The notes below the pieces were generated by a model. The model searched no databases and was not told the origin of the DNA. It saw nothing but the letters and a program-made list of their open reading frames with translations. Below, piece after piece: positions 31,783 through 50,834 of a DNA stretch of 64,000 bases (position 1 is its first letter; every line of letters begins with the position of its first letter). This DNA comes from Pirellulales bacterium (GTDB lineage Bacteria > Planctomycetota > Planctomycetia > Pirellulales > Lacipirellulaceae). The position numbers were made by a program, and so were the translations under genes. The stretch lies in assembly GCA_019636345.1 (NCBI GenBank), contig JAHBXQ010000003.1, forward strand, positions 682,001 to 746,000, in the 5' to 3' direction.

Positions 31783-32451
31783 TCAAGGGGCGCCGTCGAG
31801 CCGCGCCACGTAGATCCGTTTGCGATCGAGTTTTCCCTGGCGGCCCGGGGCGTCGGCGAAGTGCTCGACCCGATCGCCCACGCCGTCGGTCAGTTTCTGC
31901 GAGCTGCGGTACTTGAGCCCGACGATCGCGTCGCGAGCGCGAACGAGCTCCACCAGCACGACGCTGTGCCCCGACTTGTCGGTCCGCCACAGTTGCACAA
32001 AATCCCCGGGGCGGGCGTCGGCGAGTCGCACCTCGCGGCCGATTCCCAGTCGCTTGACCGCCAGGGCGCACTGCTTCTCCCCCGCATCCTCGGCGGCGCC
32101 GTACCACTCGCGTTGGAACTGCTTCACCTGGGCGAAGCTCTTGTCGCGCAGCAACCCGCGGCGCTCGAGCGTTTCCATCGCCACGGCGAAGGTGAACCCG
32201 CTGCAGTACGTCCCCCGCGGCTGCTTTTCCAGCACGATTTGGCCGGCGTGGCGAATGGTGCGCGGGACGCCGGTCGAGTCCTTCCACACGTAACCGCCGC
32301 CGTCGGGGATCGAATTGGCGACGACAAGTTCCATCGGCTCGCGCGGCTCGGTACGATCGGAGGCACGCGCCGCCGGAACGTTCGCGGCGCCGTACGCGAC
32401 CAGCAGGGCGATCCACGGCCGACGAACGGAGCAAGCGAGCATGGTCATCAC
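31783..32451 (-). CDS. Secreted papain-fold (NlpC/CHAP-like) cysteine peptidase candidate
   Basis: The 222-residue product has a signal peptide (hydrophobic about 13-29, ending in AARA). No database family is certain, but TYCSGFTFAV (C83) at the start of a helix and SGHSVVLVELV (H162) in a following strand, after ARPGDFVQLW, are the Cys-helix and His-strand arrangement of NlpC/P60 and CHAP enzymes. GDFV before the His strand is typical of those families. A role in cleaving peptidoglycan peptides or amides is therefore plausible and suits the neighbouring amidase. Several ATG codons cluster at the start (32451, 32448, 32442). The gene is divergent from gamma-glutamyltransferase. Confidence 0.7.
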   Translation of the reverse strand: MMTMLACSVRRPWIALLVAYGAANVPAARASDRTEPREPMELVVANSIPDGGGYVWKDSTGVPRTIRHAGQIVLEKQPRGTYCSGFTFAVAMETLERRGLLRDKSFAQVKQFQREWYGAAEDAGEKQCALAVKRLGIGREVRLADARPGDFVQLWRTDKSGHSVVLVELVRARDAIVGLKYRSSQKLTDGVGDRVEHFADAPGRQGKLDRKRIYVARLDGAP

Positions 32452-32548
32452 CCACGACGCGACGAGCGAACCCAGAACGACGCCGGGCGATCCGCGATCG
32501 ACCGGCCTTCAGGCAAACGCTCAGTGTAGCAACCCGCGCGGACCGGGC

Positions 32549-34288
32549 GTGCGCCATCCGGGGGTTGCGCTGCGATCCGACCGCAGCCGCTCGCGTCAGA
32601 CCGGCGCCATTCTGATCGTCCTTGCCGTCTGTGCGCCGCTTGGGGCGCGGGGGGGCGAAGCGCAGTGCGTCGTCGCCACGGTCAACGCGCTAGCCACCGA
32701 CGCGGGGCTCGCCGCGTTCCAGCGCGGGGGCAATGCGGTCGACGCCGCGGTCGCCGCCGCCGTGACGCTCGGGGTCGTCGACGGGTACAACTCGGGGCTC
32801 GGGGGCGGGTGCTTCGTCCTCATCCGAACCGCCGACGGCCGGCTGGCCGCGATCGACGGGCGCGAGAAGGCTCCCGCCGCGGCCGCCGCCGACATGTTCC
32901 TCCGCGACGGCCAGGCCGACACGAATCTCAGCCAGACCGGCCCGCTGGCGAGCGGCGTTCCAGGGGCGCTGGCCGCGTACGAGTTGGCCCTGGCGAAGCA
33001 CGGCCGGCTGCCGCTGGCCGACGCGCTGCTCCCCGCCGCCGAGATCGCCGAGACCGGCTTCGCCGTTCCCGCGGCGTACGCCCGGAATCTGCGTTCGCTG
33101 CGCCGGACGCTGGCCCGGTTCCCCGGCAGTCGGGCCGCGCTGCTCAAGCCGGACGGCTCGCCCTATGCCGAGGGGGAGACGCTGCGGCAGCCCGATCTGG
33201 CGCGCTCGTACCGCAGCATCGCCGAGCACGGCAGCGCGTGGTTCTACCGGGGCGAGTTCGCCCGGCAGGTCGGCGCGTGGATGGCCGCCAACGGCGGGAT
33301 CATGACCGCCGAGGACTTTGCCGCGTACGAGGCGGTCGAGCGCGAGCCGCTGGCGACCGCTTACAGGGATTACACGATTGTCGGGTTTCCGCCCCCCAGT
33401 TCGGGCGGGGTGCATGTGGCGCAGATCCTCAACATGCTCGAATCGTTCGATCTGGCCGCCGAGCAGCGCCGCGACCCGGTCGCGGCGACTCACCTGATCG
33501 CCGAGGCGATGAAGCTGGCGTTCGCCGATCGGGCGCACTGGCTCGGGGACGCCGACTTCGTGCCGGTCCCCCGTGGGCTGATCGACCAGGACTACGCCGA
33601 CCGCTTGGCCGCGCGGATCGACCCGGCTCGGGCGACCCCGGTGGCCTCGCACGGCGAGCCGCCGCGGGCGGCGTACGACACGTTCGGCCGGCACACCACG
33701 CACGTCGCGGCAGCCGACAGCGCCGGCAACTGGGTCGCGATCACGGCCACGGTGAACACCACGTTCGGCTCGAAGGTGATCGTCCCCGGCACGGGGATCG
33801 TGCTGAACAACGAGATGGACGACTTCTCGGCCCAGCCGGGCGTGCCGAACGCATTCGGCCTGCTCGGCGCCGAGAACAACGCCGTGGCGCCGGGCAAGCG
33901 GCCTCTGTCGAGCATGAGCCCGACGATCGTGCTCCAGGGGGACCGGCCCGTGCTGGCCGTCGGGGCCGCAGGGGGGCCGAAGATCATCACGCAGGTCCTG
34001 CTGACGATCGTCCGCCGGCTCGATTTCGGCGAGTCGCTCGATCAGGCGATCGCCGGCCCGCGGTTCCATCACCAGTGGCAGCCCGACGAGCTGGTCGTCG
34101 AGGAGGCGTTGCCGACGGAGTTCAAGACGCAGTTGGAGTCGTTAGGGCATAAACTGCAAGTGATCGACAAGGGGGGCGTCACGCAAGCGGTCGAAATCGA
34201 CGCCGCGGGAAACCTGCACGGCGTGCACGACCCGCGCGTCCCGGGAAAGGCGGCGACGGCGCGGCGCGAGGCGCCGAGCGACCCGTAG
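32549..34288 (+). CDS. ggt: Gamma-glutamyltransferase
   Basis: The enzyme transfers or hydrolyses gamma-glutamyl groups and matures by self-cleavage. Signatures include AFQRGGNAVDAAVAAAVTLG, NSGLGGGCFVLIR, the autocatalytic threonine in GRHTTHVAAAD (about T383), LNNEMDDFS and LSSMSPTIV. AAGGPKIITQVLL completes the family pattern. A hydrophobic segment (GAILIVLAVCAPLGA) acts as signal peptide, so it is probably periplasmic. The start is unsure. GTG 32549 is used (579 residues) because the frame upstream overlaps the divergent gene; TTG 32565 and ATG 32441 are alternatives. Glutathione is the classic substrate, but D-gamma-glutamyl peptides from peptidoglycan are possible in this setting. Confidence 0.9.
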   Translation: MRHPGVALRSDRSRSRQTGAILIVLAVCAPLGARGGEAQCVVATVNALATDAGLAAFQRGGNAVDAAVAAAVTLGVVDGYNSGLGGGCFVLIRTADGRLAAIDGREKAPAAAAADMFLRDGQADTNLSQTGPLASGVPGALAAYELALAKHGRLPLADALLPAAEIAETGFAVPAAYARNLRSLRRTLARFPGSRAALLKPDGSPYAEGETLRQPDLARSYRSIAEHGSAWFYRGEFARQVGAWMAANGGIMTAEDFAAYEAVEREPLATAYRDYTIVGFPPPSSGGVHVAQILNMLESFDLAAEQRRDPVAATHLIAEAMKLAFADRAHWLGDADFVPVPRGLIDQDYADRLAARIDPARATPVASHGEPPRAAYDTFGRHTTHVAAADSAGNWVAITATVNTTFGSKVIVPGTGIVLNNEMDDFSAQPGVPNAFGLLGAENNAVAPGKRPLSSMSPTIVLQGDRPVLAVGAAGGPKIITQVLLTIVRRLDFGESLDQAIAGPRFHHQWQPDELVVEEALPTEFKTQLESLGHKLQVIDKGGVTQAVEIDAAGNLHGVHDPRVPGKAATARREAPSDP

Positions 34289-36963: not shown

Positions 36964-39900
36964 TTAGCGCGCCGTCGACTCGGCCGCGATCTCGCGGGCG
37001 ACGTCCTCGGTGCGGCGCATCACGCGGAGCAGGTTTTCGCCCAGCACCTTCTTGACGTCGGCTTCGCTGTAGCCCCGGTCGAGCAGGCCCTGGGTGATGT
37101 AGGGGTAACTCGCCGCGTCCTCGAGTTGCGTCGGCAACAGCGACACCCCGTCGTAGTCCGACCCCAGCCCCACGTGATCGATTCCCGCGATCCGGACGAT
37201 GTGGTCGATGTGATCCAAGAGGTCGTGGATCGTGCCGCGCAAGGTCGGGCGGGTCGCGTCCCAGCGGGCGAGCCCCGCTTCGATCGCGGGGCGGTCGTCG
37301 CCGTGTTCCGCCTCCAGCTTGCGCAGCTCGACGAAGCGCTGTTTGTCGCGCTCGGCCGACTGGGGGACGATGAACGCCGAGAAGAAATTGACCATCACCA
37401 CCCCGCCGTTGTCGCGCACCAGCGGCAGGACGTCGTCGGGGACGTTGCGGGGGTGGTCGGCCACGCCCCCGGCCGAGCTGTGCGAAAAGATGACCGGCGC
37501 CCGAGTCGCGGCGAGGGTCTGCTTCATGGCGTCAGGCGAGACGTGGGAGAGGTCGACCATCATCCCCAGGCGGTTCATCTCGCGGACCACCTCGACGCCG
37601 AAAGGCGCCAAGCCCCCCGCCTTCGGCTTGTCGGTCCCCGAGTCGGCCCAGTCGAGCGAGTCGCTGTGGGTGAGCGTCATGTACCGGGCGCCCAGGCGAT
37701 GGAGTTGCCGCAACGCGGCGAGCGAGCCTTCGATCGAATGGCCCCCCTCGACCCCGATGAGCGATGCGATCCTTCCCGACCAGTGGATGCGGACGATGTC
37801 GTCGGCCGTCAGGGCCAGCTCGAACGCATCGGGGTAACGGGCGATCATCGTCTGCACGAGGTCGATCTGCTCAAGCGTCGTCGACAAGGCTTGTCCGCGG
37901 CGGGCGGTGTAGACGGGGACCCAGACGCTCCAGAACTGGGCGCCGACGCCCCCCTGGCGAAGTCGGGGGATGTCGGTCTGCAACGACGATTGCGGTTGGC
38001 TGACGTCGAGTTTGTCGAACGAGCCGCCGGCCTGGGTCCGCACCTCCCACGGCATGTCGTTATGGCCGTCGACGACCAAACTGCTGCGGTGCAGACGTTC
38101 GGCCGCGGGGGTCAGCACGACCGGGTCGCGCGACGCGGGAGCGTGAATCGCCGTGGCCAGCACCGAGGTCCGCGGCGCCGCGGCGGCCTGGGGGGACGAA
38201 CCGAGCAGTTGGCTCCAGGCCCACCGATACAGATTGCGGCTGTCGGCGTAACGCGACTCGCTGCTCTCGGCGCCCAGGACGGCGACGATCAACCGGCGGC
38301 CGTCCCGCTCGCCCGCCGAGACGAGGCACGCCCCCGCGGCCGTCGTGGTGCCGGTCTTGACCCCGTAATACCCCTCGGTCGCCAGCAGCCGGTTCGTGTT
38401 GTACCAGGCGACGTTGCGGCGATACCCGCCGGGGCCGGTCACCGTGGCTCCCCGCTGCCGCGTGCCCACGACGTCTTTGAACAGCGGCAGCTCGAACGCC
38501 GCCCGGGCGAGCTTCGCCAAGTCGTGAGCGCTGGCGTGGTGCCCTTCGGCCGTCAGGCCGTGCGTGTTGGCGAACTGCGTGGCGGCGAGCCCCAACTCCG
38601 CGGCCGTGCGATTCATCGCGGCGACGAAGGCGTCGTAGGCGGCGGACCGTGCGGAGATTTCACTCGGCTCCGACGGCAGCGGCTGTCCAAGTCGCGCTCC
38701 GAAATGCTCGGCGAACGCCACCGTCGCGTCGTTGCCCGAGGGGAGCATCATGCCGTACAGCAGCTCGCGAACCGAAACCTGTTCGCCGATCCGCACGTCG
38801 GCCGTGGTGCCGATCGTGTCGTCGGCTCGCTTGGAGAACGTGACGGTCTCGTCCAAAACTTCGGGATGCTCGGCCGCGTACCTGAGCACGACGTACGCGG
38901 TCATGATCTTGGTGGTGCTGGCCATGTCGCGGGGCTCGTCGGGCTTGAGGCCCCACAGCAACTCGCCCGTGTCGGCGTCGAGAATCGCCCACGCCTTGCT
39001 CGCGGTGAACGGCGGGCCGTCGAGCGGGTCGGCCGGGTCGCGCGGCAGCTTGGCCGCGTTGAGCGCGTCCGGCTCCGGCGCCTTGGGGTCTTCTGTCGCC
39101 AACGGGCCGAGCGCCTCCCACGTCGCCGCGTCGACGATCCCGGTTTCCGGCAAGCCGCGGCTGCGCTGGAACGCTCGGACGCCGCTCTCGGTGTTGGGGC
39201 CGAAGTCGCCGTCGACCGCCAGCCCCGTCGAGGGGGTCGTGCGGGCGTTGATCGTTCGCTGCAGCGCCGCGACCAACTCGCCCGAGGCGCCCATGGCGAG
39301 CGTCTGCGGGCCGTCGTCAGTTGGCTTCGCGGGACCGTTCGGAGCGTAATGCCGATACGCCGCCGCGGCGATCTTGCCGATCAGCACTTCGGCCGCGTTC
39401 TCGGCGCCCCAGCTTTGGTCGGCGTTGTTGTTGGTCAGCACGCAGATGGCCAGCCGGCCCTCGGGCAGGTCGATTAACCCCGCGTCGGTCCGCGTGAGAT
39501 TGACCGCCCCGGTCTTATGAGCCAGCTTCACCCCGGGGGGCAGAAACCGGCCGAGCTTCGTCCGATCGAGGCAGGCGTACAAATGCCCGCGCATCGCGTC
39601 GGTCGACGCCTTGCTCCCCAACTTGCCGGCGTCGAGCAGCTCGAGCAGTTTCACCATGTCGGCCGCGGTCGTGCTCCCCAGGCCGTACAGTTGGCTCCGC
39701 TCGGGGAAGATCGACGTCTCGCGCCGGTAGACGAGCGAGTGGAGCTTCGTCTCGGGAAGTCCCAACTCCTCCATGTACTTGGCCGTCTCGGGCAACCCGA
39801 CCGCCTCGGCGACGAGGTTCGTGGCCGTGTTGTCCGAGTGGATGATCATCAGGTGGATCGCGTCGTGGAGCGACAGTTGCAGCCCGGCAGAGAACTGCTC

Positions 39901-40254
39901 CGTGAGGATTCCCGAGCCGGGGACTTTGTCCTCAGCTCGCAGCGTGAGCAGTTGCTGCGGATCGAGTCGCCCGGCGTCGACCGCGCGGTACGCGGTCGCC
40001 ATCAGCGGCAGCTTGACGAGGCTCGCCGTGGGCATCGGCAGGTCGGCCCGATAGGCGAACTCTTCCCCCGCGGGGAGGCGCTTCACCGCGATCGCCACGT
40101 CCCCTTCGTGCGCCTCGGCCAAGGCGGCGAGCTCCGAAGCGAGTGCGTCGGGAATCGACTTGGCGCGGGCTGCCAAGGGGAGTGCGAGCGCCGTCGCCGC
40201 GAGGGCCAGGGTCGACAAGCGAAGAGGATGCAGAAGCAGCGACGGGGTGCGCAT
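36964..40254 (-). CDS. Four-part fusion: class A beta-lactamase-like domain, PG-binding domain, S11 DD-carboxypeptidase, M19 dipeptidase
   Basis: The 1096-residue exported protein has four enzyme or binding modules. After a signal peptide (1-31), residues about 40-305 are a beta-lactamase-like serine hydrolase with SLVK (78-81), SDN (140-142) and KTG (247-249). About 320-385 is a peptidoglycan-binding_1 repeat (LAVDGDFGPNTESGVRAFQR). About 415-690 is an S11 D-Ala-D-Ala carboxypeptidase with STTK (446-449), SGN (506-508) and KTG (633-635). About 715-1090 is an M19 membrane-type dipeptidase with DGHND (H731, D733), VEGGHSIEG, and DHVGLGSDYDG. It could trim stem peptides and split the released dipeptide in one place. 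It lies 51 bases after the dipeptide epimerase gene. Such a combination is unfamiliar to me. Confidence 0.92.
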   Translation of the reverse strand: MRTPSLLLHPLRLSTLALAATALALPLAARAKSIPDALASELAALAEAHEGDVAIAVKRLPAGEEFAYRADLPMPTASLVKLPLMATAYRAVDAGRLDPQQLLTLRAEDKVPGSGILTEQFSAGLQLSLHDAIHLMIIHSDNTATNLVAEAVGLPETAKYMEELGLPETKLHSLVYRRETSIFPERSQLYGLGSTTAADMVKLLELLDAGKLGSKASTDAMRGHLYACLDRTKLGRFLPPGVKLAHKTGAVNLTRTDAGLIDLPEGRLAICVLTNNNADQSWGAENAAEVLIGKIAAAAYRHYAPNGPAKPTDDGPQTLAMGASGELVAALQRTINARTTPSTGLAVDGDFGPNTESGVRAFQRSRGLPETGIVDAATWEALGPLATEDPKAPEPDALNAAKLPRDPADPLDGPPFTASKAWAILDADTGELLWGLKPDEPRDMASTTKIMTAYVVLRYAAEHPEVLDETVTFSKRADDTIGTTADVRIGEQVSVRELLYGMMLPSGNDATVAFAEHFGARLGQPLPSEPSEISARSAAYDAFVAAMNRTAAELGLAATQFANTHGLTAEGHHASAHDLAKLARAAFELPLFKDVVGTRQRGATVTGPGGYRRNVAWYNTNRLLATEGYYGVKTGTTTAAGACLVSAGERDGRRLIVAVLGAESSESRYADSRNLYRWAWSQLLGSSPQAAAAPRTSVLATAIHAPASRDPVVLTPAAERLHRSSLVVDGHNDMPWEVRTQAGGSFDKLDVSQPQSSLQTDIPRLRQGGVGAQFWSVWVPVYTARRGQALSTTLEQIDLVQTMIARYPDAFELALTADDIVRIHWSGRIASLIGVEGGHSIEGSLAALRQLHRLGARYMTLTHSDSLDWADSGTDKPKAGGLAPFGVEVVREMNRLGMMVDLSHVSPDAMKQTLAATRAPVIFSHSSAGGVADHPRNVPDDVLPLVRDNGGVVMVNFFSAFIVPQSAERDKQRFVELRKLEAEHGDDRPAIEAGLARWDATRPTLRGTIHDLLDHIDHIVRIAGIDHVGLGSDYDGVSLLPTQLEDAASYPYITQGLLDRGYSEADVKKVLGENLLRVMRRTEDVAREIAAESTAR

Positions 40255-40305: not shown

Positions 40306-41328
40306 CTATTTCGTCAGCAACTCGACCCCGTGGCCGGGGGCGTCGGGGTAGCGGCAGCGCCCCCGGTCGACGCGGCAGCCGGTCGCCACGTCGCGGGCCA
40401 AGAGCGCGGCGCCGTCCATGTCGACGAAGTCCAACAGCGGCAACAACTGGGCGATCGCCGAGATCCCCACGGTCGACTCGGTCATGCAGCCGACCATCGT
40501 CTTCATGCCCAGCGATCGCGCCTCGGCGATCATCCGCCGTGCGGGGGTCAGCCCGCCGCACTTGACCAGTTTGACGTTCACGCCGTGGAATCGCCCCTGG
40601 CACCTCGAGACGTCGGCCTCGCTGATGCAGCTCTCGTCGGCGACGATCGGCAGGGCCGACTCGGCGTAGACCCGCCGCGACCCCTCGACGTCCTCGGCCG
40701 GCAGCGGCTGCTCGATGAACTCGACCCGCAGGGGGCGCAGCTCGCGCGAATTGCGGATCGTCTCCTCGACCCCCCAGCCGCAGTTCGCGTCGACCCGGAA
40801 CACGGCGTCGGTGTGCTTGCGAAGCTCGCGCACAATCTCCAAGTCGTGCGGCGTGCCGAGCTTGATCTTGTAGATCGGCCAGTCGGGCATCTCGTTGAGC
40901 TTGGCGACCATCTTCTCGATCGTGTCGATGCCGATCGTGTAGTTGGAGAGCGGCACGCGCTCGTTCGACAGTCCCCAGAGTTTATAGACAGGTTGGCCCT
41001 GTTGTTTCCCCCACAGGTCGTAGGCCGCTTGGTCGACGGCGCATAACGTGAACGAGTCGTCGCCGATCGCCGCGGCCAGTTCCGGCCAAAGCCGTTCGGG
41101 ATCGAGCCGATCGACCGCCGCGAGAACCGGCCGGGCCTTGTCGAGCGAAGCCCGCATCCGCTCGCGGGTGGCGTTGTAGTACTTGTTGGTCGTCGCCTCG
41201 CCGTAGCCGCGGCGAACGCCGTCGGTCAGTTCGACCACCAGCGTCGGTTGCACCGAGGTGCTCTCCCGCGAGATCGAGAAGACATGCCGCAGCGGCAGAT
41301 CGTATTCGTGGGCGACGGCTTGAATCAC
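40306..41328 (-). CDS. Enolase-superfamily dipeptide (L-Ala-D/L-Glu) epimerase or N-acetyl-D-Glu racemase-like enzyme
   Basis: The muconate-lactonizing subgroup of the enolase superfamily is clear: YKIKLGT with the base lysine, the metal ligands in VDANCGW, EFIEQPLP and VADESC, then VKLVKCGGL with the second lysine, and DMDGAALL near the end. Such enzymes epimerise L-Ala-D-Glu from murein to L-Ala-L-Glu. The preceding DUF1611 gene raises the alternative that it is a racemase for N-acetyl-D-glutamate (DgcA-like). GTG 41328 (340 residues) aligns with the family N-terminus; a TTG at 41385 would add 19 residues. It is cytoplasmic, in line with the DUF1611 gene upstream and the four-domain peptidase downstream. 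Confidence 0.88.
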   Translation of the reverse strand: MIQAVAHEYDLPLRHVFSISRESTSVQPTLVVELTDGVRRGYGEATTNKYYNATRERMRASLDKARPVLAAVDRLDPERLWPELAAAIGDDSFTLCAVDQAAYDLWGKQQGQPVYKLWGLSNERVPLSNYTIGIDTIEKMVAKLNEMPDWPIYKIKLGTPHDLEIVRELRKHTDAVFRVDANCGWGVEETIRNSRELRPLRVEFIEQPLPAEDVEGSRRVYAESALPIVADESCISEADVSRCQGRFHGVNVKLVKCGGLTPARRMIAEARSLGMKTMVGCMTESTVGISAIAQLLPLLDFVDMDGAALLARDVATGCRVDRGRCRYPDAPGHGVELLTK

Positions 41329-41434
41329 GCGAAAGGCCCCCGAGCGAGCAGGATCGACAACGTCAAGCAAGACCGACTGTGGCAAGCGGGGAGTTCATTC
41401 GTCGCTGGGCGTCCTTGCGATGCCGCCGCCTCGG

Positions 41435-42481
41435 CTACACCGCCACCGGCGCCAGCGCCAATGCCGCCTCGACCAGCGCGTCCGGGCCGTCGCGGATGAC
41501 GTCGCACACGGGGAGCCCCAGCAGTCGGCTCACCCGCTCGCGCTCTTCCTCGGCCTGTTCGGCGTTGAGTTTGCGGCTGTTCATTCCCACGCCGATGAAC
41601 CGCGACGGCCCCTGCAGGTTGGCCATTGTCTCGTAAATTCGCACCAGCTCGTCAAGCGGCTTGAGCGGAATGTGCTCCATCCCGTGCACGTGGGTGCGCC
41701 CCGCCTCGTAGCACATGACCATGCCGTGAGGCATGCAGCCGTGCAGCAGGCTGAGCGTGACCCCCGAGTAGCGGGGGTGCGTGAGGCAGGCCTGCCCCTC
41801 GATGACCATGAACTCATGATGCTGATTGGCGAGCACCAGCTTCTCGACCGCCCCGCTGACGAAGTCCGATACGACGCGATCGATCGGGCAGCCGTCGCCC
41901 TCGATCATAATGCCGGTCTGACCGGTGGCGACGAATTTGGCGTCGCGTCCCCGCGCCTGCAGGCCGCGGGCGATCTCGACCGAGACGACCATCTTGCCGA
42001 TGCTGCAGTCGTTGCCGACGGTGTGGATGCGAATGCAGTCGTCGCGAATCCCCTTGCGGTTGGGGACGTCCTTTTCGTCGTTCTTGCGGACGTCGATCAG
42101 CTTGACGCCGTGCTGGCGGGCGGCGGCGGCGAACTCGGGGTCGTCCGACATGAAGTCGTGCAGTCCCGACAGAATGTTCATCCCGCGGCGAATCGCTTCG
42201 AGCACGACGGGGCGCCAAGCGACGGGAATCTTGCCCCCCGAGGGGGCGATTCCCACCAACAGCGTGTTGGCCTCCGGCGCCGCAGCGAGTTGGCCGATGA
42301 CCGGCGTGTCGCCGCCGACGCCCAGCACCTCGCCGGCGGTTCGGCCCGCTTGATGCGTGTCGTACACGGCGACGACCTCTTCAGGCCGATACCGCAGCAC
42401 GCAGACGCCGGTTTTTGCCGTGATCGGCTCGGAATGGCCTTCGGTGAGGATGACGATGCGGCGCGATGAATCGTGTGACAC
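41435..42481 (-). CDS. DUF1611 P-loop protein, candidate D-glutamate N-acetyltransferase (DgcN-like)
   Basis: The 348-residue cytoplasmic protein has the DUF1611 pattern: RIVILTEGHSEP near the start, IAPSGGKIP, ILSGLHDF, then a P-loop-like VGNDCSIGKMVVSVEIARGL, FVATGQTGIMIEGDGCPIDR, and VIEGQACLTHPRYSGVTLSL. Members of this family (DgcN) are reported to N-acetylate D-glutamate, with an enolase-superfamily racemase (DgcA) as partner; the next gene here is such an enzyme. GTG 42481 has GAGG seven bases upstream and is chosen over a TTG at 42511. TGCGCA at 42637 lies upstream, so this gene probably starts a three-gene operon. Confidence 0.85.
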   Translation of the reverse strand: MSHDSSRRIVILTEGHSEPITAKTGVCVLRYRPEEVVAVYDTHQAGRTAGEVLGVGGDTPVIGQLAAAPEANTLLVGIAPSGGKIPVAWRPVVLEAIRRGMNILSGLHDFMSDDPEFAAAARQHGVKLIDVRKNDEKDVPNRKGIRDDCIRIHTVGNDCSIGKMVVSVEIARGLQARGRDAKFVATGQTGIMIEGDGCPIDRVVSDFVSGAVEKLVLANQHHEFMVIEGQACLTHPRYSGVTLSLLHGCMPHGMVMCYEAGRTHVHGMEHIPLKPLDELVRIYETMANLQGPSRFIGVGMNSRKLNAEQAEEERERVSRLLGLPVCDVIRDGPDALVEAALALAPVAV

Positions 42482-42645
42482 GTTGGGCCTCGAAATGATT
42501 TCTCGCCGCAACTGGGCGACGGCAACTCCCGCGTATCGAGTGTAGTGCGTGCGCGAGATGAATTAAAGCCAACGAATTTCGCGCAGAAAGTTATCGACCC
42601 CGCGCAGCCGAGGATGCAAAACAGCGGCGTCTGCGATGCGCAAAA
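42482..42645 (-). promoter_or_regulatory. Upstream region of the DUF1611-epimerase-peptidase operon
   Basis: This 164-base gap separates nagZ from the DUF1611 gene on the same strand. On the minus strand TTTTGCGCATCGC covers TGCGCA at 42637-42642, just after the nagZ stop. A related CGCGCA with flanking A/T occurs around 42579-42590. A new promoter here is likely but not proven. Confidence 0.35.
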
Positions 42646-44262
42646 CTAAGCGGAACCATCGCCTGCCAATCGCCGAGCCAGTGCGCGTTGGCTGATCGGA
42701 ACGTCGCTGAACGTGCAGAGTCGCGCCGCGGCGCGGGGAGTCGCCGCCAGCGCCGCCGGAGCGCCGAGGCAGGCGACCACGGTCGGGCGCCGCTCGGTCG
42801 TTTCGCGCAACCAGCGGTCGGCTGCGGCCGGCAGCCCGAACCGATGCCAGGCGGCCGGCTTCACGACGATCGCCGCCAGCAATTGCTCGGCCGCCGCGGT
42901 GTGCGCGGCCAGCGCTTCCCACTGGGCCGGGGGTTCGTCGCCGCGAAGTTCCACGAACTCGAGTCGCGGGAAACGTTCGGCCAACGCCGTGGCGAGCGGC
43001 GGTTCCGGCGGGTCGAGATGCGACCGATACTGCGTCACCAACACCGCCAGCAGCGGCCGCGCCGGATCGAGCAGCGGCGCGGTCGCGGCGGGGGCGCACT
43101 CGATCGCCGCGGCGGCAACCCGTTCGGCGAGTTCCTCCGTCCGTGCGCGCAAAGCGTCGTCGGACAGCGACGCGAACTGAGATCGGCCGCCGAAGTCGCC
43201 GGCGAATGCCAGCCGCTTGAGTCGCAGGATACGCTCCGCGGCCTCGTCGACGCGCGCAAGCGGAAGTCGCCCCGCGTCGACGGCGGTCTCCATGACGGCC
43301 AGCGCTGCGACCGGGTCGTTCAAATCCAACAGCGCGTCCGCCCCCGCGTTGACGGCCAGGACGCACAGCTCCCCCTCGCCGGCGGCGCGCCCCTGCACTC
43401 CGGCCATCATCATGCTGTCGGTGACCACGGCGCCGGTGAAACCGAGCTCGTCGCGGAGCAGGTCGACGAGGATCGACCGCGAAAGCGTCGCCGGCGCTCC
43501 CGAGTCGTCGAGCGCCGGATACCGCACATGGGCCGACATCACCAGCGGCGCCCCCGCGGCGATCGTCGCCCGGAACGGCGCCAGTTCCTGGGCGAGCAGT
43601 TCCTCGCGCGACGCGGAGACGACCGGCAGCGCATGGTGCGAATCTTCGTGCGTGTCGCCGTGGCCTGGGAAGTGCTTGGGCGCGGCGAGCAATCCCCCCG
43701 CGGCGCACCCCTCGACCAGCGCCGCGGCCAACTCCGCGGCGCGAGCCGGATCGGCGGCGAAGGCTCGCGTCGAGACGATCGGGTTTTGCGGGTTCGAGTC
43801 GACGTCGGCCACCGGCGCGAACGCGATGTGCAATCCGGCGCGGCGCGAAGCGACCGCCGTCAGTTCGCCGAACTGCCGGACTGCGTCGGCGGCGTCGGGG
43901 CCGAGCGACCCGAACGCCATCGCGTGGGGCGCCACAGGGTAGGGTCGCAACTGCTGCCCGTACCCTCGTTCGATGTCGGCCCCGACCAACAGCGGCACTC
44001 GGCTCTGCGCCTGCAGGCGGGCCAGCGCTGCGGGGCTCGTCGCGTGACGACCGTTGAACAGGATCAGCCCCCCGAGGGGCGCTTCGGCCAGCAGCGCCGC
44101 GATCCGCGCCTCGTCCTCGTCCGCCGTACGCACCGGAGGCATGTCCGACCCGAGCCGGACGAACATCAACTGCGCGAGCTTCTCGCGGAGCGAGAGCGCG
44201 GACGCATCGACGACGGAGGCAGGGGAATCGAACATGCTCTCGAGGTTCGGCAAGCGGCGCAT
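42646..44262 (-). CDS. nagZ: Beta-N-acetylhexosaminidase, GH3 family (NagZ)
   Basis: The 538-residue enzyme has no signal peptide, so it works in the cytoplasm on imported muropeptides, removing GlcNAc from (anhydro)MurNAc. The NagZ signature KHFPGHGDTHEDSH (196-209) supplies the His-Asp general-acid dyad, and VVTDSMMM holds the nucleophile Asp (about 282). About 150 extra residues after 385 form an alpha/beta C-terminal domain, longer than E. coli NagZ (341) and closer to two-domain Gram-positive forms. The start is unsure: ATG 44262 leaves 10 bases after the permease stop; GTG 44289 and ATG 44235 are alternatives. It is co-directional with the AmpG-like gene. Confidence 0.93.
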   Translation of the reverse strand: MRRLPNLESMFDSPASVVDASALSLREKLAQLMFVRLGSDMPPVRTADEDEARIAALLAEAPLGGLILFNGRHATSPAALARLQAQSRVPLLVGADIERGYGQQLRPYPVAPHAMAFGSLGPDAADAVRQFGELTAVASRRAGLHIAFAPVADVDSNPQNPIVSTRAFAADPARAAELAAALVEGCAAGGLLAAPKHFPGHGDTHEDSHHALPVVSASREELLAQELAPFRATIAAGAPLVMSAHVRYPALDDSGAPATLSRSILVDLLRDELGFTGAVVTDSMMMAGVQGRAAGEGELCVLAVNAGADALLDLNDPVAALAVMETAVDAGRLPLARVDEAAERILRLKRLAFAGDFGGRSQFASLSDDALRARTEELAERVAAAAIECAPAATAPLLDPARPLLAVLVTQYRSHLDPPEPPLATALAERFPRLEFVELRGDEPPAQWEALAAHTAAAEQLLAAIVVKPAAWHRFGLPAAADRWLRETTERRPTVVACLGAPAALAATPRAAARLCTFSDVPISQRALARRLAGDGSA

Positions 44263-44272
44263 CCCGCCGCGC

Positions 44273-46159
44273 TCAAGCCCCGCCGTCACGGCCGAAGTCG
44301 GCGTCCAGCGGGATGAACGCCGTGGCGGCGAAACTGGGAATCGTGGCGATCATAATCCACAGGAAGAATCGCTCGTAGCCGAGCAGCTCTTGCAGCCAGC
44401 CGCTGACCATCCCCGGCAGCATCATCCCCAGCGCCATCGCGCCGGTGCACAGGGCGTAGTGCACCGTCTTGTGCTCGCCCCGAGCGACGTACATGCAGTA
44501 CAGCATGTACGCCGTGAAGCCGAAACCGTAGCCGAACTGCTCGACCGCCACCGCCGCGTTGACCGCCAGGAAGCTCTCGGGCTGAAAGCAACTGAGGACG
44601 ACGTAGGCGAGGTTCGGCAGGTTGATGGCCAGCACCATCCACCACAGCCAGCGTTTGAGCCCGTGCCGCGCCGCGACGATGCCGCCGACGATCCCCCCCA
44701 GCGACAACATGACCACCCCGACCGTGCCGTAGACGAATCCCACTTCGCCGGTGGTGAGAGCGAGCCCCCCGGCGTCGCGCGAGTCGAGCAAGAACGGCGA
44801 GGCGATCTTCACCAACTGCGACTCGGCGAACCGGTAGAGCAGCAGAAACGCGAGCATCGGGACGATCCCCGGCTTGCGGAAGTAGCTCACCAGCGGTTCG
44901 GCCAGCCCCGCGAGCGACACGATTGAATCGCCATGCGGCTTGTCGCCCGGGGGACGCGGCAGGGCCAGCGCGTGATAGACCGACGCCAAGCAAAACAGCC
45001 CGGCGAGCGCGTAGAAGACGATCGTCCACGACAGCCGCACGTCCCCTGAGCGGAGTTCGAACGTCGCGGACGAAGGGGCGTCGAGCTTGGCGTCGGCCTG
45101 GACGATCGCGACGAACGGTCGCCGCCAGTTGTCGGCGGTCACGACGAATCGCTCCCCTTCGACGACCGCGAAGCTGGGATCCCCCTCGGCCCGGTCGAAC
45201 TGCACCACGAGGTTCGACCCCGGTTCGACTGGTTTGGAGACGCGCATCATGATTGCCGTCAGGTCGCCGGCGCGCTGGTCGGCGTCGGCCCGGCGCTGGC
45301 GCTGCGGGGGGCCGAACCTGTCGCGGATCAAACTCTCCAGACGTGCGATCCAGCCCGGCTTCTCCCCCGGCGTCGGGGTCGCGGGGGCTTCGGGGGCCGG
45401 GTGAAACGCATGCGCGACGTTCCACTCGCGCGCCGCGTCGATCAATTGCTTTGTCTCGGCCGGGGGGCGGCCCGTCAGCGCCAGCGTGAACGACTCGTTT
45501 CGCACAAGGATCCGTTGCGGTCCGTCGTCGCTCTCGTCGGGCGCCCAATTCGCCCAATCATCGACGAGCCGCGTCGGCTCAGCGTCGCTGATCTCCACGC
45601 GGGCCCGCTCCAACGGCAGGCCCGAGGAGGTTTCGATCAGCCCCGCAAGCATCACCAGCACCCCTTGCCCGACGATCATCGCCAGTCGGTAAAACGTACT
45701 GCGAATTCCGACGAACCACGCCTGCTGATGGCCGTCGAGCGCGTCGAGATAGAAGCCGTCGGCCGCCACGTCGTGCGTGGCCGACATGAACGCCACGAAC
45801 GCCAACGTGGCGAGCGAGTAGCGGAAGAAGTCTCCCATATTCAGCGCGAGCGCCGTGGCGGCGAACCCCGCCGCCACCAACGTCTGCATCGCCACCGTCC
45901 ACCGGCGGCGCGTGCCGAGCCCCTCGACGATCATGCTCCACAGGGGTTTGACGACCCAGGGCAGGTACAGCACGCTGGTGAACCACGCAATGTCGCGGTT
46001 CGACACGCCCAGCCGCTTGTACATGATGACCGCGGCGGTCATCACGACGACGTAGGGGACCCCCTCGGCGAAGTAGAGACTCGGGATCCAGCGCCAGGGC
46101 CCGCGGTCGGCGGGGGCGGAATTCGCGGCGGCGTCGGCGTGAGTCACGGGGCGGATCAA
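44273..46159 (-). CDS. ampG: AmpG-like muropeptide permease with large periplasmic-type insertion
   Basis: The product is a major-facilitator protein of 628 residues. The AmpG pattern starts at SLYFAEGVPYVVVMTAAVIM and includes KPLWSMIVEGLGTRRRW and SATHDVAADGFYLDAL. AmpG imports GlcNAc-anhydroMurNAc and its peptides; nagZ directly downstream and a wall hydrolase upstream fit that role. About 200 residues (177-375) without membrane segments separate the first and second helix groups, much more than in E. coli AmpG. The insert has beta-rich parts (SFAVVEGERFVVTADNWRRP). The TTG start at 46159 overlaps the GHL10 stop by four bases; GTG 46147 is possible. No ribosome-binding site is evident. Confidence 0.87.
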   Translation of the reverse strand: MIRPVTHADAAANSAPADRGPWRWIPSLYFAEGVPYVVVMTAAVIMYKRLGVSNRDIAWFTSVLYLPWVVKPLWSMIVEGLGTRRRWTVAMQTLVAAGFAATALALNMGDFFRYSLATLAFVAFMSATHDVAADGFYLDALDGHQQAWFVGIRSTFYRLAMIVGQGVLVMLAGLIETSSGLPLERARVEISDAEPTRLVDDWANWAPDESDDGPQRILVRNESFTLALTGRPPAETKQLIDAAREWNVAHAFHPAPEAPATPTPGEKPGWIARLESLIRDRFGPPQRQRRADADQRAGDLTAIMMRVSKPVEPGSNLVVQFDRAEGDPSFAVVEGERFVVTADNWRRPFVAIVQADAKLDAPSSATFELRSGDVRLSWTIVFYALAGLFCLASVYHALALPRPPGDKPHGDSIVSLAGLAEPLVSYFRKPGIVPMLAFLLLYRFAESQLVKIASPFLLDSRDAGGLALTTGEVGFVYGTVGVVMLSLGGIVGGIVAARHGLKRWLWWMVLAINLPNLAYVVLSCFQPESFLAVNAAVAVEQFGYGFGFTAYMLYCMYVARGEHKTVHYALCTGAMALGMMLPGMVSGWLQELLGYERFFLWIMIATIPSFAATAFIPLDADFGRDGGA

Positions 46160-47730
46160 TCGCGCTGGAGGAGGACGCGGGTCGCGGGGCCCTCGAGCCC
46201 GGTGCGCGACACGGCCGAGACGGACGCCTCGACCACGCGGGCGCCGGCGGCGACGGATGCAGTGTACCGTCGCTCGTGCCCGGGGACGACGGCGGCTTCC
46301 CAGCGATCGCCTCGCTTGAGTTGCACGACCCAGAGCCAGGGGCGACTCGCTCCCGGCAGATCGAATCGCACCGTCACCGCGTCGCGCGACGCCCCGGCGG
46401 TCGCCTGCGGCGTCGCGGGGATCGGGCCGTCGGCTCCTGGCAGCGGCGGCACGAGCGCCGGCTTTGCGTACAGATTCTCACGGAGTTTCTCGGCCAAGCC
46501 GTCGTAGTCCTTGGCGAGCGCCTTCATGCTGAAGTGGACGTTCCCGCGGGCGCCCGGTTGGGCGCGGGTCGCTTCGATCTGGCGGAGAATCTCCGTCGCT
46601 TCCCAGTGTTGGTCGTCGGCGGGGACGCGCGCCGAGGTTCGCACTCGCGACGTGTAGTTCCCCGGCCAAAGTTCCCGCCCGTGCACGTTCTCTTCGGCCC
46701 ACCAAGCCAGGAGTTTGGGATAACTCTGCTGCTGCTTCTCAATCGGCCAGTACAACTGCGGGGTGAAGTAATCGACCCACCCCTCTCGCAGCCACTTGCG
46801 GGCGTCGGCGTACAGGCTGGCGTACTGGTCAAACCCGGTGATCCCCGGCGGATTGCCGGGGCGCCAGATGCCGAACGGGCTAATGCCGACCTTGACCTCG
46901 GGTCGCAGTCGTTTCACTTCGCGATACATCCGCTCGACCAGCCGATCGACGTTCTGCCGGCGCCAATCGTCGCGCTCGAGCGTCTCGCCCGCGGCGACCG
47001 CCCGCTCGTAGCTGGCGTCGTCGGGGAAGGGAACCGGTTTGCCGGCGTCGTCGTTGATCGGGTACGGATAGAAGTAGTCGTCCAGGTGGACCCCGTCGAC
47101 GTCGTACCGCGCGACGACGTCGGCGACCACGGCGATGAACCGATCGACCGAGGCCGGTTCGCCCGGATCGAACCACAGGTACTTGCCGTACTGCTTCACC
47201 GCGTCAGGCATCGTGCGGCTGGCGTGATTGGGCGCGACTCCTCCCTTGGCGTCGGGATGCTGCACCCGATAGGGATTGAACCACGCGTGCAGCTCGATCC
47301 CGCGGCGGTGGGCTTCCCGCACGGCGAACTCGAGCGGGTCGTAGTACGGCGCCGGCGGCTTGCCCATCGTTCCCGACAGGTAAGCGGACCATGGTTCGAG
47401 CTTCGATGCGTAGAGTGCATCTGCGGCGGGCCGCACTTGCAGGATTACCGCGTTGAGGCGCAATCCGGCGGCGCAATCCAACAGGGCGATCAGCTCCTGT
47501 TGCTGCTGCTGGCCGGTGAGCCCGGGGCGCGAGGGCCAATCGATGTTCGCCACGGTGGCGATCCAGGCGGCGCGGAATTCGCGCTGCACCGCCGGCGGGG
47601 CGTCGTCGCCGAGTTGCTGACCGAAGACCGGCTGCAGCAAAACCACTGGGCTAATCGCCAGCCAACCGACCAATACCGGCCGTCCCGACGAGCGCGCCGA
47701 GCCTCGCGGAGTGTCGAGAAGAGTTTTCAT
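46156..47730 (-). CDS. GHL10-type (DUF187) secreted glycoside hydrolase, DigH/YngK-like
   Basis: The 524-residue product has a signal peptide (hydrophobic about 18-37, ending VFGQ). The GHL10 TIM barrel follows: REFRAAWIATVANIDWPSRP, LNAVILQVRPAADALYASKL, PLEFAVREAHRRGIELHAWF, and YDVDGVHLDDYFYPYP, with the acidic DD pair typical of the active site. KVGISPFGIWRPGNPPGITG and DYFTPQLYWP complete it, and a fibronectin III-like domain ends the protein. Relatives such as E. coli DigH (YddW) act on peptidoglycan glycan strands stripped of peptides. Here it heads the GHL10-ampG-nagZ operon and would supply sugars for import. Confidence 0.9.
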   Translation of the reverse strand: MKTLLDTPRGSARSSGRPVLVGWLAISPVVLLQPVFGQQLGDDAPPAVQREFRAAWIATVANIDWPSRPGLTGQQQQQELIALLDCAAGLRLNAVILQVRPAADALYASKLEPWSAYLSGTMGKPPAPYYDPLEFAVREAHRRGIELHAWFNPYRVQHPDAKGGVAPNHASRTMPDAVKQYGKYLWFDPGEPASVDRFIAVVADVVARYDVDGVHLDDYFYPYPINDDAGKPVPFPDDASYERAVAAGETLERDDWRRQNVDRLVERMYREVKRLRPEVKVGISPFGIWRPGNPPGITGFDQYASLYADARKWLREGWVDYFTPQLYWPIEKQQQSYPKLLAWWAEENVHGRELWPGNYTSRVRTSARVPADDQHWEATEILRQIEATRAQPGARGNVHFSMKALAKDYDGLAEKLRENLYAKPALVPPLPGADGPIPATPQATAGASRDAVTVRFDLPGASRPWLWVVQLKRGDRWEAAVVPGHERRYTASVAAGARVVEASVSAVSRTGLEGPATRVLLQRD

Positions 47731-47765: not shown

Positions 47766-47837
47766 CAAGGCATGCGCACTCGCTTCGCGTTTTTGCGTAG
47801 CGGACGCGATTCGCGGTTGGCGCATGTCGCCGGTTTG

Positions 47838-47867
47838 TTGTCGACTTCCTCGTCGGCTACCTATACT
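47838..47867 (+). promoter_or_regulatory. Sigma-70-type promoter of the GH25 gene
   Basis: TTGTCG (47838-47843) and TATACT (47862-47867) are separated by 18 bases, good matches to the -35 and -10 boxes. The expected transcript would have a leader of about 95 bases before the TTG start at 47970. TGCGCA at 47773 and a related TTTTTGCGTA (about 47790) lie upstream, in the region shared with the divergent GHL10 operon. Confidence 0.6.
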
Positions 47868-47969
47868 GCAAGCAGAGGCCGCTTGCCTTCCGGTCGTCGC
47901 CGACGACCTCCCGCCGAGTTGCGCCGGCTTCTTGTGTGCGCCATCGCTTCGGAACGAAGAGGCAGTCCC

Positions 47970-50834
47970 TTGTCGCTTTCACGATTCGCTCATGCCTCTC
48001 GCGTTGCGCGTCCGCGCCGCGATCTGGCGAGGTTCGGCTGCTCGATCCTAGCCGTCGCCCTCCTTGGCGCCGTCGCGCCAGTTGCGCTCGCGCAGCGCAT
48101 CACGGGGATCGACGTCTCGGCGTGGCAGGGGAACATCTCGCAGTCGGGATGGAACTCGGCCTACAACAGCAGCAACATGCGGTTTGCGTTCATTCGCTCG
48201 AGCCGCGGCGGGACGACCGGGTTCGATCGTCGGGCCGACGGGTTCACTCCCGGGAACAACTCCTACACGGGGTCGCAGCGGTACGACGATCCCTACTTCG
48301 GCCAGAACATCACCCGCGCCACGACGGCGGGGATGTTCGCCGGGCCGTACCACTTCGCTCGGCTCGACGTGGTGGCGGAGAAGACCAACTCCGACGGGTC
48401 GGTCGTCCAGGTTTCCAACACCGGCTCGGACGAGGCGAATCACTTCATCGAGATGGCCGGCGCGTGGATGCGCCCCGGGTACTTGGTTCCCGTGTACGAC
48501 TTGGAAGCGGGACAAGGAGACCGAACGGCAAACGAGATCGCCCAGTTCTCGCTCGACTTCTCCAATCGCATCTACGAGGCCATGGGCATCCGGCCGGCAA
48601 TGTACATCAACGGCAACTACTCGAGCATTCTCCAAAACGCCTCCGCGTCGCTGCGGAATCAACTGGCTCAGCCCGCGCAGTACACGCCCAGCGTCGTCGG
48701 TCCCGCCTTTCCTGTGCTGTGGGATGCGCGGTACGCGAACCAAAGCGACCCGGGTTCGATCCCCATCCAAACCGGCAGCCCCAAGACGACCCCGACGACG
48801 AACAACGCGTACTACGGTCCGTGGGACGACTACGGCGTGAGCGAGCCGTGGGACTTTTGGCAGTACGCCAGCACCGGCCCCGTGTCGGGCATCTCGAGCG
48901 CGATGGACGTCAACGTCGCCCGCGGCGACATTGAGTTCGTCAAGGACAAGCTCGTCCCCGCGGTGTGGATGAACGACTCCAGCGGCGACTGGAGCACGCT
49001 GGCCAACTGGAACAGCGGTCAGGCGGCGGTCGCGCCGATCGTCGCCCCCAACCAGAGCCCCGTGCAGGGAACGACCGTCTTGCCGACGCCTCGCTTGCCG
49101 GGCGCCGCCGGCAGCGGGCCGACCTCGGGGCAGCACGATACGGTGATCATCGAGCGCCCGAACGCAGCCGTCACGGTCACGGTTTCGACCGGGACGCACA
49201 ACGTCCGCAAGCTCTACATGCGCGAGACGCTCGCCGTCACCGGCGGGACGCTCACGATCAACTACGACCCGAACTACGTCTCCGACACGGTCAACTTTCC
49301 GAGCGCCGCCCGCTCGGGGCCGATCTCAGCGCAGTTCTCGGGCCCCGCCTCGTTGGTCGGCTCCGGCAATTTGAACGTGAATACGTTGCAGATCGACGCG
49401 CAGCAGACCTTCACGGTCGGCAGTACGGGAACATTGTCGCTGGCGCGGCTGAACTTGATGCCCCATGCGTCCAACCCGGCTCGGCTGCTGCTGTCGGGCA
49501 ACCTGAATTTCACTCCTCTTGCGGGCGCCGCGGCGGTCGTCGCCAACGGCAGCGGCGGCGGGCAGTCGGGTCGCGTCGATCTGGGGGGCGAGATGCGCAC
49601 CTTCAACGTCGCCAACGGCGCCGCGGCCGTCGATTTGACGATCAGCGCCCCGGTGATCAACGGCGGCCTGACGAAGACTGGCGCCGGGACGCTCGCCCTG
49701 ACCGGCGCCAACACGTACGCCGGCGACACCGCCGTCCACGCCGGCACGCTCCGGACGACCACGCCGTACCTCGCCAACAGCGCCGACGTGTACCTTACCA
49801 GCGGGGCGACGCTCGACTTGAACTTCGCGGGGACCGATCTCATTCGTTCGTTCTACATCGACGGCGCCCCGCAGGCTGCCGGGACGTGGGGAGGAATCGG
49901 TTCGGCGGCGCAGTTCACCACCCCGCTTATTACGGGAACGGGTTTGTTGAGCGTGACGACGGCTGCGGCGCCGCCGGTCCCGGGAATGGGGAACGTGCTG
50001 GACGACTTCGAGGTCGACGAAGGCCGCTTCGGCTGGGCTTACAACACGTCGCCGGCGTCGCAGACGTTCGGGCTGTCCCCTGCCACGACGATCGAGCGCG
50101 TCACCACCGAGGCCCACACGGGGGTCGGGTCGCAGGAGTTGAACTTCGTGTCGACAGGGGGCGCCTGGCAGATTCGGCACAATTCGGGCCTCGGCACGCC
50201 CGCCGATCCCAGCGGCAACGTGGCGCTCCCCGCGACGGGTCACATCGGCTTTTGGCTTAAAACCAACGATCCCGGCGTCACGGTGCGGATTGCGCTGGAC
50301 GATCCCACGAGCGCTGATCGCGGGATCGTCAAGGACGTGATCGCCGACGGGCAGTGGCATCTTTACCAATGGAATCTCAACGACCCCGCGCAGTGGGAGG
50401 CCTGGGCCACCGGCGACGGCGTCATCACGGGGCCCACGCTCACCATCGACTCGATTTTCTTCGCCGGCACGGACAGCGCGGTCGTCTATCTGGACAACGT
50501 GTCGCACAACCCGCTGTCGCAGCTCGCCGGGCCGGCGGACGAGGACTTCAACGCCGACGGGGTGATCGACGGAGCCGATCTTTCGGCTTGGCAAGCCGGT
50601 TTCGGACTTTCCGGCACGGCCCGGCGCATCGACGGCGACGCGGACGTCGACCGCAACGTCGACGGGGCCGATTTCCTCGCTTGGCAGCGGGCCGCGTCGG
50701 CGGTCGAGGCTTCCCCCGCCGCCGGAAGCGTCCCCGAGCCGGGCGCCGCTGCCTTGGTTGTGCTGGTCGCCGCTTTCGCGGCGCTTTGCCAGGCGCGCAA
50801 ATCCCGAGCGGCACAGCCGGATCGGTCGCTGTGA
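47970..50834 (+). CDS. Secreted GH25 muramidase with autotransporter-type repeat, dockerin and PEP-CTERM
   Basis: The 954-residue product starts at TTG 47970, preceded by a strong AAGAGG ribosome-binding site at 47957-47962. A signal peptide (to about 42) leads into a GH25 lysozyme barrel: ITGIDVSAWQG (active-site Asp), FAFIRSSRGG, AGPYHFAR and VPVYDLEAGQGD with the catalytic acids, then MYINGNYSSI. Later regions include an autotransporter-associated beta-strand repeat (GGLTKTGAGTLALTGANTYA) and a carbohydrate-binding-like sandwich (about 675-855). A dockerin pair (DFNADGVIDGADLSAWQAG and DGDADVDRNVDGADFLAWQ) and the PEP-CTERM anchor VPEPGAAALVVLVAAFAAL close the protein. It should cut the MurNAc-GlcNAc backbone outside the cell. 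Confidence 0.93.
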   Translation: MSLSRFAHASRVARPRRDLARFGCSILAVALLGAVAPVALAQRITGIDVSAWQGNISQSGWNSAYNSSNMRFAFIRSSRGGTTGFDRRADGFTPGNNSYTGSQRYDDPYFGQNITRATTAGMFAGPYHFARLDVVAEKTNSDGSVVQVSNTGSDEANHFIEMAGAWMRPGYLVPVYDLEAGQGDRTANEIAQFSLDFSNRIYEAMGIRPAMYINGNYSSILQNASASLRNQLAQPAQYTPSVVGPAFPVLWDARYANQSDPGSIPIQTGSPKTTPTTNNAYYGPWDDYGVSEPWDFWQYASTGPVSGISSAMDVNVARGDIEFVKDKLVPAVWMNDSSGDWSTLANWNSGQAAVAPIVAPNQSPVQGTTVLPTPRLPGAAGSGPTSGQHDTVIIERPNAAVTVTVSTGTHNVRKLYMRETLAVTGGTLTINYDPNYVSDTVNFPSAARSGPISAQFSGPASLVGSGNLNVNTLQIDAQQTFTVGSTGTLSLARLNLMPHASNPARLLLSGNLNFTPLAGAAAVVANGSGGGQSGRVDLGGEMRTFNVANGAAAVDLTISAPVINGGLTKTGAGTLALTGANTYAGDTAVHAGTLRTTTPYLANSADVYLTSGATLDLNFAGTDLIRSFYIDGAPQAAGTWGGIGSAAQFTTPLITGTGLLSVTTAAAPPVPGMGNVLDDFEVDEGRFGWAYNTSPASQTFGLSPATTIERVTTEAHTGVGSQELNFVSTGGAWQIRHNSGLGTPADPSGNVALPATGHIGFWLKTNDPGVTVRIALDDPTSADRGIVKDVIADGQWHLYQWNLNDPAQWEAWATGDGVITGPTLTIDSIFFAGTDSAVVYLDNVSHNPLSQLAGPADEDFNADGVIDGADLSAWQAGFGLSGTARRIDGDADVDRNVDGADFLAWQRAASAVEASPAAGSVPEPGAAALVVLVAAFAALCQARKSRAAQPDRSL

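Follow-up and report, generated by a model that had tools for sequence, protein, structure and literature searches.

The closest described counterparts of the locus examined here come from D-amino acid catabolism and from murein recycling. Our subject is a gene for a DUF1611 protein and an adjoining gene for an enolase-superfamily epimerase/racemase, found in a Pirellulales bacterium (Lacipirellulaceae) on a 64,000-nucleotide stretch of DNA that we call the window (assembly GCA_019636345.1, contig JAHBXQ010000003.1, positions 682,001-746,000 of the forward strand). A comparable pair, DgcN/DgcA of Pseudoalteromonas sp. CF6-2, reportedly serves D-glutamate (D-Glu) catabolism according to Yu et al. 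2023 (ISME J 17:537). PMC12363236 describes a pathway that irreversibly racemises acidic D-amino acids and their amides, names dgcN as its key gene and reports that gene in 32 class-level clades, with Bacteroidetes among the carriers; the DgcN/DgcA pathway is also treated in PMC10845958. In CF6-2 as in the window, the DUF1611 gene lies directly upstream of an enolase-superfamily racemase gene on the same strand, but the neighbours differ, being M14, NhaC and DgcR genes in CF6-2 and wall-recycling genes in the window. The L-Ala-D/L-Glu epimerases (AEE) of Bacteroides thetaiotaomicron (PDB 3iji and 3ijq), Escherichia coli (YcjG) and Bacillus subtilis (YkfB) share the fold, the catalytic residues and the murein setting of the window enzyme. 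Murein recycling by AmpG and NagZ likewise has its counterpart in an AmpG-type permease and a NagZ-type GH3 enzyme of the window. In the literature searched we found no description of how planctomycetes dispose of D-Glu from their own or scavenged murein, and no paper on murein recycling in Planctomycetes with DUF1611.

A conserved and co-evolving pair in a wall-salvage operon

The DUF1611 protein (DgcN-like, 358 amino acids) is encoded on the minus strand at 41435-42511 and carries both Pfam domains of the family, PF07755 (DUF1611_C, 4.9e-68) and PF17396 (DUF1611_N, 7.2e-31), at 229 and 106.8 bits against gathering cut-offs of 25 and 22.6. The epimerase, also on the minus strand at 40306-41328, has 340 amino acids from a likely GTG start at 41328, its open reading frame opening further upstream at TTG 41385, and matches MR_MLE_C (8.3e-35) and MR_MLE_N. 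An initial annotation had recognised a DUF1611 and epimerase pair here, which these domain matches bear out, and had placed it at 41328-41435; the two genes are real and lie back to back, but that minus-strand span is the spacer between the likely epimerase start and the DUF1611 stop and holds neither of them. A search of positions 30000-52000, spacer included, gave no Rfam match.

The two genes belong together across the phylum. We searched 294 Planctomycetota genomes, calling DUF1611 strong at E <1e-30 and the epimerase window-type at 200 bits or more, and found the former in 72 and the latter in 48. Strong DUF1611 accompanies the epimerase in 44 of the 48 genomes, 28 have DUF1611 alone and 218 have neither, giving a Fisher p of 1.8e-28, a value that overstates independence since the genomes are related; counted by family code, 17 of 19 epimerase families have DUF1611 (p 5.5e-9, with 91 families assumed). 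The epimerase match lies less than 300 nucleotides from a same-strand DUF1611 domain match in 35 of the 48 cases and within 3 kb in three more; DUF1611 is elsewhere in the assembly in six of the remaining genomes and absent from four. Distances in the DUF1611 and epimerase trees are correlated (Mantel r 0.958 over 59 adjacent pairs; 0.858 over 17 pairs within the window clade; 0 of 5000 permutations as high in either case), as is expected in part from the species' shared descent. Genome co-occurrence, family counts and tree congruence together rule out a chance neighbourhood, and the DUF1611 protein and the epimerase form a genuine enzyme pair, conserved and co-evolving, that belongs to a wall-salvage operon.

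We note that one genome (G231) keeps both a DUF1611 gene and a window-type epimerase gene, but apart, on contigs C18 and C3 (L065 and L232); its DUF1611 gene stands tail to tail with a NagZ-type gene.

The operon is a compact run of six minus-strand genes at 47730-36964, in the order GHL10, AmpG, NagZ, DUF1611, epimerase and a fusion protein. With the last represented by S11 and M19, the same order is kept in Lacipirellula limnantheis (L114) and Pirellula sp. PB1.3.31 (L113), and at a third locus (L112) the epimerase, S11 and M19 genes are visible up to the contig end; gene calls around these loci are crude longest-ORF calls. The GHL10 glycosyl hydrolase-like protein (46156-47730; PF02638, 1.4e-63) has a hydrophobic N-terminus. 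It is followed by the AmpG-type muropeptide permease of the major facilitator superfamily (44273-46159; TIGR00901, 7.5e-45), which passes the MFS_1 cut-off and misses that of TIGR00901 (153.3 bits in two stretches, against 350), and by an adjoining, overlapping gene for the NagZ-type GH3 beta-N-acetylhexosaminidase (42646-44289; PF00933, 7e-72; NF003740, 162.7 bits against a cut-off of 207). Downstream of the epimerase, at 36964-40254, a secreted-looking protein of 1096 amino acids joins Beta-lactamase2, PG_binding_1, Peptidase_S11 and Peptidase_M19 dipeptidase domains, with a hydrophobic N-terminus and catalytic motifs. Thus wall enzymes do lie beside the pair, as had been proposed from the initial annotation. 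The S11 and M19 parts are encoded by separate adjoining genes in L113 and L114, each product with a hydrophobic N-terminus, whereas in the window they share one frame; a frame error as the source of the fusion was ruled out, the frame being single and open and its parts in the same order as those separate genes. Secretion is called here from hydrophobic N-termini, by eye and with a simple hydrophobicity scale in place of a signal-peptide program; by eye, neither the DUF1611 protein nor the NagZ-type GH3 enzyme has a signal peptide.

Relation to DgcN/DgcA and to dipeptide epimerases

In arrangement the pair resembles DgcN/DgcA, the epimerase gene adjoining the DUF1611 gene as dgcA does dgcN, yet both window proteins fall far under the curated cut-offs and into separate clades in both trees. 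The DgcN model NF041892, which is the only NCBIfam match of the DUF1611 protein, gives it 278.5 bits against a cut-off of 480 that control proteins from CF6-2 (493.4) and a Klebsiella plasmid (523.2) pass, and the seven-row DgcN clade of the DUF1611 tree (support 100, branch 1.41) does not include it. The epimerase reaches 215.4 bits with the DgcA model NF042940 (cut-off 400, passed by CF6-2 DgcA at 412), a model blind to pairing, since it gives 202.4 and 223.8 bits to Flavobacterium and Pontibacter enzymes that have no DUF1611 gene close by. The window epimerase also falls short of the E. coli-type AEE model NF011708, at 141 bits against 343, and differs from the dipeptide epimerases also in being DUF1611-paired, the Bacteroides enzyme lying in a sister clade.

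The epimerase tree has 70 rows, since 29 of the 99 in a quick tree were near-duplicates or long branches and were removed ahead of all counts; it places the window protein in a 35-row clade (100/99). A DgcA/AEE clade on a long branch (100/100) holds CF6-2 DgcA, 4gfi from Agrobacterium, the Klebsiella plasmid DgcA, two planctomycete proteins and E. coli AEE, the last grouping with the DgcN-paired Klebsiella DgcA (99/94); the bootstrap of this tree is not settled, and in it the DgcA and 3rit branches, both long, come together. Orthology of the window epimerase with DgcA was rejected on its score below the NF042940 cut-off and its separate clade, and the membership in DgcN and DgcA that the initial annotation had assigned does not hold for either protein. 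To judge from sequence, the window pair probably works like DgcN/DgcA while standing outside that family by cut-off and clade, and its exact substrates may differ.

Two further loci may be mentioned. Sinorhizobium meliloti pSymA (L035, CP140882.1) has dgcN with no dgcA annotated or detected beside it, and a planctomycete pair of the DgcN/DgcA clade (L060, genome G249) occurs in an assembly that has, on a different contig, an AmpG of 49% identity (G249:C25:75044-76888).

The core residues of both window enzymes are intact. The DUF1611 protein, whose PDB relatives are 2obn, 7xrj and 2g0t, has an unbroken P-loop (G166-x-D168-C169-S-I-G172-K173) and keeps H118, R142, D211, E223, E238-G-Q240, R272 and N311; 54 of the 77 columns invariant in the seven DgcN-clade proteins are identical in it and 23 differ. 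Loss of the acetyl-CoA-binding residues, which the initial annotation had named, together with epimerase residues specific to another dipeptide subgroup, as fatal to its proposal, is not what the P-loop and family core display. The predicted epimerase model is good (mean predicted local distance difference test score, pLDDT, 89.8), and the fold, the two-base lysines, the three metal ligands and the eighth-strand D-x-D of the dipeptide epimerase subgroup are all present (K173, K175, D199, E225, D250, K272/K275, D322 and D324, numbered from the TTG start). The P-loop, core residues, KxK, metal ligands and D-x-D are features shared with DgcN/DgcA.

The initial annotation had set two rival substrates against each other, free D-Glu by way of N-acetyl-D-Glu or the dipeptide L-Ala-D-Glu, and that framing stands; its proposal that active-site residues would decide between them does not. 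D-x-D and KxK are common to CF6-2 DgcA, E. coli AEE, the Bacteroides dipeptide epimerase and the window enzyme. Because CF6-2 DgcA has these residues too, they do not separate N-acetyl-Glu from L-Ala-Glu, and the D-x-D motif was rejected as proof of a dipeptide substrate. DUF1611-paired and unpaired epimerases of the window clade differ consistently in a single column (147), which we do not use as evidence. The substrate choice is not settled by sequence; we favour N-acetyl-Glu with about even confidence. The locus carries a warning that neither an L-Ala-D/L-Glu epimerase nor a DgcA can be named from sequence alone, and it offers a concrete assay to part two routes usually taken as alternatives.

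DUF1611 and its partners in other clades

Beyond the window, the enolase partner of DUF1611 matches the DUF1611 clade, being DgcA-type, window-type or 3rit-type. One clade, with hosts among planctomycetes, Vibrio lentus and a Flavobacteriaceae genome, is accompanied instead by an Orr-like racemase dependent on pyridoxal phosphate (PLP) in 11 of 11 loci, next in line in 10 of them (L036, L045, L048, L070, L072, L074, L095, L097, L102, L222 and L229); the one protein tested scores 366.7 bits with NF040742, below the cut-off of 480, and the partner in the Vibrio locus, L036, is annotated as of the alanine/ornithine racemase family. An exception is a DUF1611 clade of nine from one planctomycete family (f13), in which no racemase was seen and a YdjY-type gene is the neighbour in eight loci (L079, L093, L099, L101, L105, L106, L108 and L109; one protein tested, NF040466, 57.2 bits against a cut-off of 50). 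DUF1611 thus seems tied to racemases as a class, and the clade-by-clade match provides a way to predict the D-amino acid of each DUF1611 protein.

In family f45, 13 of the 14 epimerase-bearing loci have an M20 amidohydrolase gene downstream of the pair (one protein tested, TIGR01891, 369.8 bits against a cut-off of 153.75). An N-acyl-L-amino acid as the product would lead one to expect such a placement, and the enzyme would complete a route from D-amino acid through N-acyl-D and N-acyl-L forms to the L-amino acid. It is possible, though we hold it only tentatively, that DUF1611 is a general D-amino-acid N-acyltransferase, each clade matched to its cognate racemase (a DgcA-, window- or 3rit-type enolase or an Orr-like PLP enzyme) in interchangeable acylate-then-racemise salvage modules, and that the Lacipirellula lineage wired the glutamate module into murein recycling, where it replaced the dipeptide-epimerase route. 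In one far lineage (L089, genome G203) an M19 gene lies upstream of a 3rit-type DUF1611 pair.

A proposed route for D-glutamate, its rivals, and flanking genes

The genome that holds the operon also encodes ArgJ, one NlpC/P60 protein, two Amidase_2 proteins and one M20 relative (C2:116532-117524). The NlpC/P60 protein, at least one Amidase_2 protein and the M19 protein have hydrophobic N-termini, and the long Amidase_2 reading frame is probably over-extended at its start. Here the window departs from AmpG/NagZ recycling as described, for there is no cytoplasmic-looking AmpD-type amidase among the genome's two Amidase_2 matches, the peptide hydrolases look secreted, and the TIGR00901 and NF003740 cut-offs are missed. 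Since the M19, NlpC/P60 and Amidase_2 proteins look secreted, L-Ala-D-Glu is probably cut outside the cell, and free D-Glu should reach the cytoplasm; ArgJ and the M20 relative would give N-acetyl-L-Glu an outlet. An Asp/Glu racemase-family protein is also present, so the pair is not the sole possible route between D-Glu and L-Glu.

Onto the observed gene content, order and conservation, the statistical and phylogenetic coupling and the intact core residues we place a scheme whose substrates, reactions, D-Glu uptake and enzyme locations we infer. AmpG and NagZ would deal with the sugar part inside the cell, while a secreted amidase, the NlpC/P60 endopeptidase and the S11-M19 fusion would dismantle the stem peptide outside it, the M19 domain splitting L-Ala-D-Glu and releasing D-Glu. 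Once taken up into the cytoplasm, D-Glu would be N-acetylated by the DUF1611 protein with acetyl-CoA, and the epimerase would convert N-acetyl-D-Glu to N-acetyl-L-Glu, which may enter arginine synthesis by the ArgJ route or be deacylated to L-Glu. We consider it an even call that the locus is a murein-salvage operon with its own D-Glu disposal step of acetylation followed by racemisation, which we favour because of the coupling of the pair, the ties of DUF1611 to racemases, the f45 M20 gene, the secreted-looking M19 domain and the ArgJ and M20 outlets.

A number of observations weigh against this scheme, and they are best considered together with the explanations that compete with it. With window-type AmpG called at E <1e-20 (9 of the 294 genomes) and NagZ-type at E <1e-40 (77 of 294), the epimerase shows no association with AmpG (2/48 against 7/246, p 0.64), and NagZ is rarer where the epimerase occurs (5/48 against 72/246, p 0.0065). 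On these counts we reject a link between the pair and AmpG or NagZ across the phylum, so that the murein connection drawn in the initial annotation stands for the cluster and fails for the pair in general: the wall link is a feature of the Lacipirellula-type operon. An M20 gene beside the pair is confined to a single lineage, and an M20 enzyme may equally be a peptidase. The best structure match of the epimerase is 3ijq, the L-Ala-D-Glu-bound dipeptide epimerase of Bacteroides (Z 44.8, root-mean-square deviation 1.5 Å over 334), followed by 3iji, the same enzyme and dipeptide (Z 44.6), with other dipeptide epimerases at 41.5 and below and 4gfi at 36.8. Columns 303, 306 and 308 were chosen because five DgcA-clade rows share a residue there that differs from E. 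coli AEE; these rows have G, L and M, the window enzyme E, V and I, and the Bacteroides enzyme E, C and I. Among the best 80 of 529 relatives from a scan of named genomes, 71 are Bacteroidota loci (54-62% identical), none with DUF1611 in the flanks examined. The genome search, made for 40 of these 80 loci, found 28 of the 32 Bacteroidota genomes to be without DUF1611 altogether; the other four have it elsewhere in the genome, beside a different enolase in L230 and L231, beside an alanine-racemase-like protein in L229, and in L228 as the fourth. The unpaired Bacteroidota enzymes have the same active-site segments as the window enzyme. These segments, the sequence and structure match to the Bacteroides enzyme, the wall enzymes around the window epimerase, and an S13 DD-carboxypeptidase gene preceding an unpaired Pontibacter relative (L116) would all suit an ordinary murein-recycling L-Ala-D/L-Glu epimerase, comparable to YcjG and YkfB, with DUF1611 serving a separate step such as clearing stray D-Glu or another D-amino acid. 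We think this unlikely, for it leaves the strong coupling unexplained, and the operon dipeptidase looks secreted and so would not meet cytoplasmic L-Ala-L-Glu. The bacterial M19 enzyme Sco3058 is said to cleave L-D dipeptides, and an M19 enzyme should accordingly not require the epimerised form. Part of the original case for AEE was that no peptidase acting on L-Ala-D-Glu had been reported (PMC5808125). M19 activity on L-D dipeptides would weaken that argument.

The unpaired enzymes also nest inside the window clade, where paired and unpaired members are interleaved in the way that the other clade mixes CF6-2 DgcA with E. coli AEE, and placing the 20 DUF1611-bearing rows in one clade, a group named after the tree was seen, was rejected (p-AU 3.9e-33) at a cost of 118 log-likelihood units. 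This too tells against the scheme. On the 70-row tree the partner changes at least 10 times by adjacency, some of these changes reflecting split contigs, and 9 times by genome content. As the same enzyme lineage occurs with and without the acetyltransferase at least two times, dual activity is a serious possibility: one epimerase would act on both N-acetyl-Glu and L-Ala-Glu, and DUF1611 would be an add-on gained or lost by lineage. We still rate it improbable, part of the counted changes being due to split contigs and no enzyme having been tested on both substrates in the literature consulted. A last objection to acetylation of D-Glu comes from position 268 of DUF1611. Among the 18 rows of the window clade a fraction of 0.94 have Tyr there and L162 has Leu; Phe or Tyr occurs in L062, L063, L081 and L094, which are sister rows, and His in all counted rows of other DUF1611 clades. 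The AlphaFold model (mean pLDDT 56.6, residues 144-262 below 50) is too poor to place Tyr268 relative to the P-loop. The replacement of an otherwise kept His, and the pairing of other clades with 3rit-type (L-Arg-D-Lys) epimerases or Orr-like racemases, are what one would see if the window clade worked on a different D-amino acid or with a different acyl donor and glutamate were not the concern of the pair. That is very improbable, however, given that the closest epimerase structure carries L-Ala-D-Glu, that DgcN is the sole NCBIfam match, and that a wall operon would supply D-Glu.

Two further genes flank the operon on the plus strand. Divergent from the GHL10 start, a gene at 47772-50834 encodes a GH25 lysozyme domain with a PATR repeat, and none was seen at the matching place in L113 or L114 by the crude gene calls. 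A gamma-glutamyltransferase gene (32315-34288; TIGR00066, 501.6 bits, above the cut-off) lies 2.7 kb from the operon end, and its product might, as a conjecture, act on gamma-D-glutamyl peptides as well.

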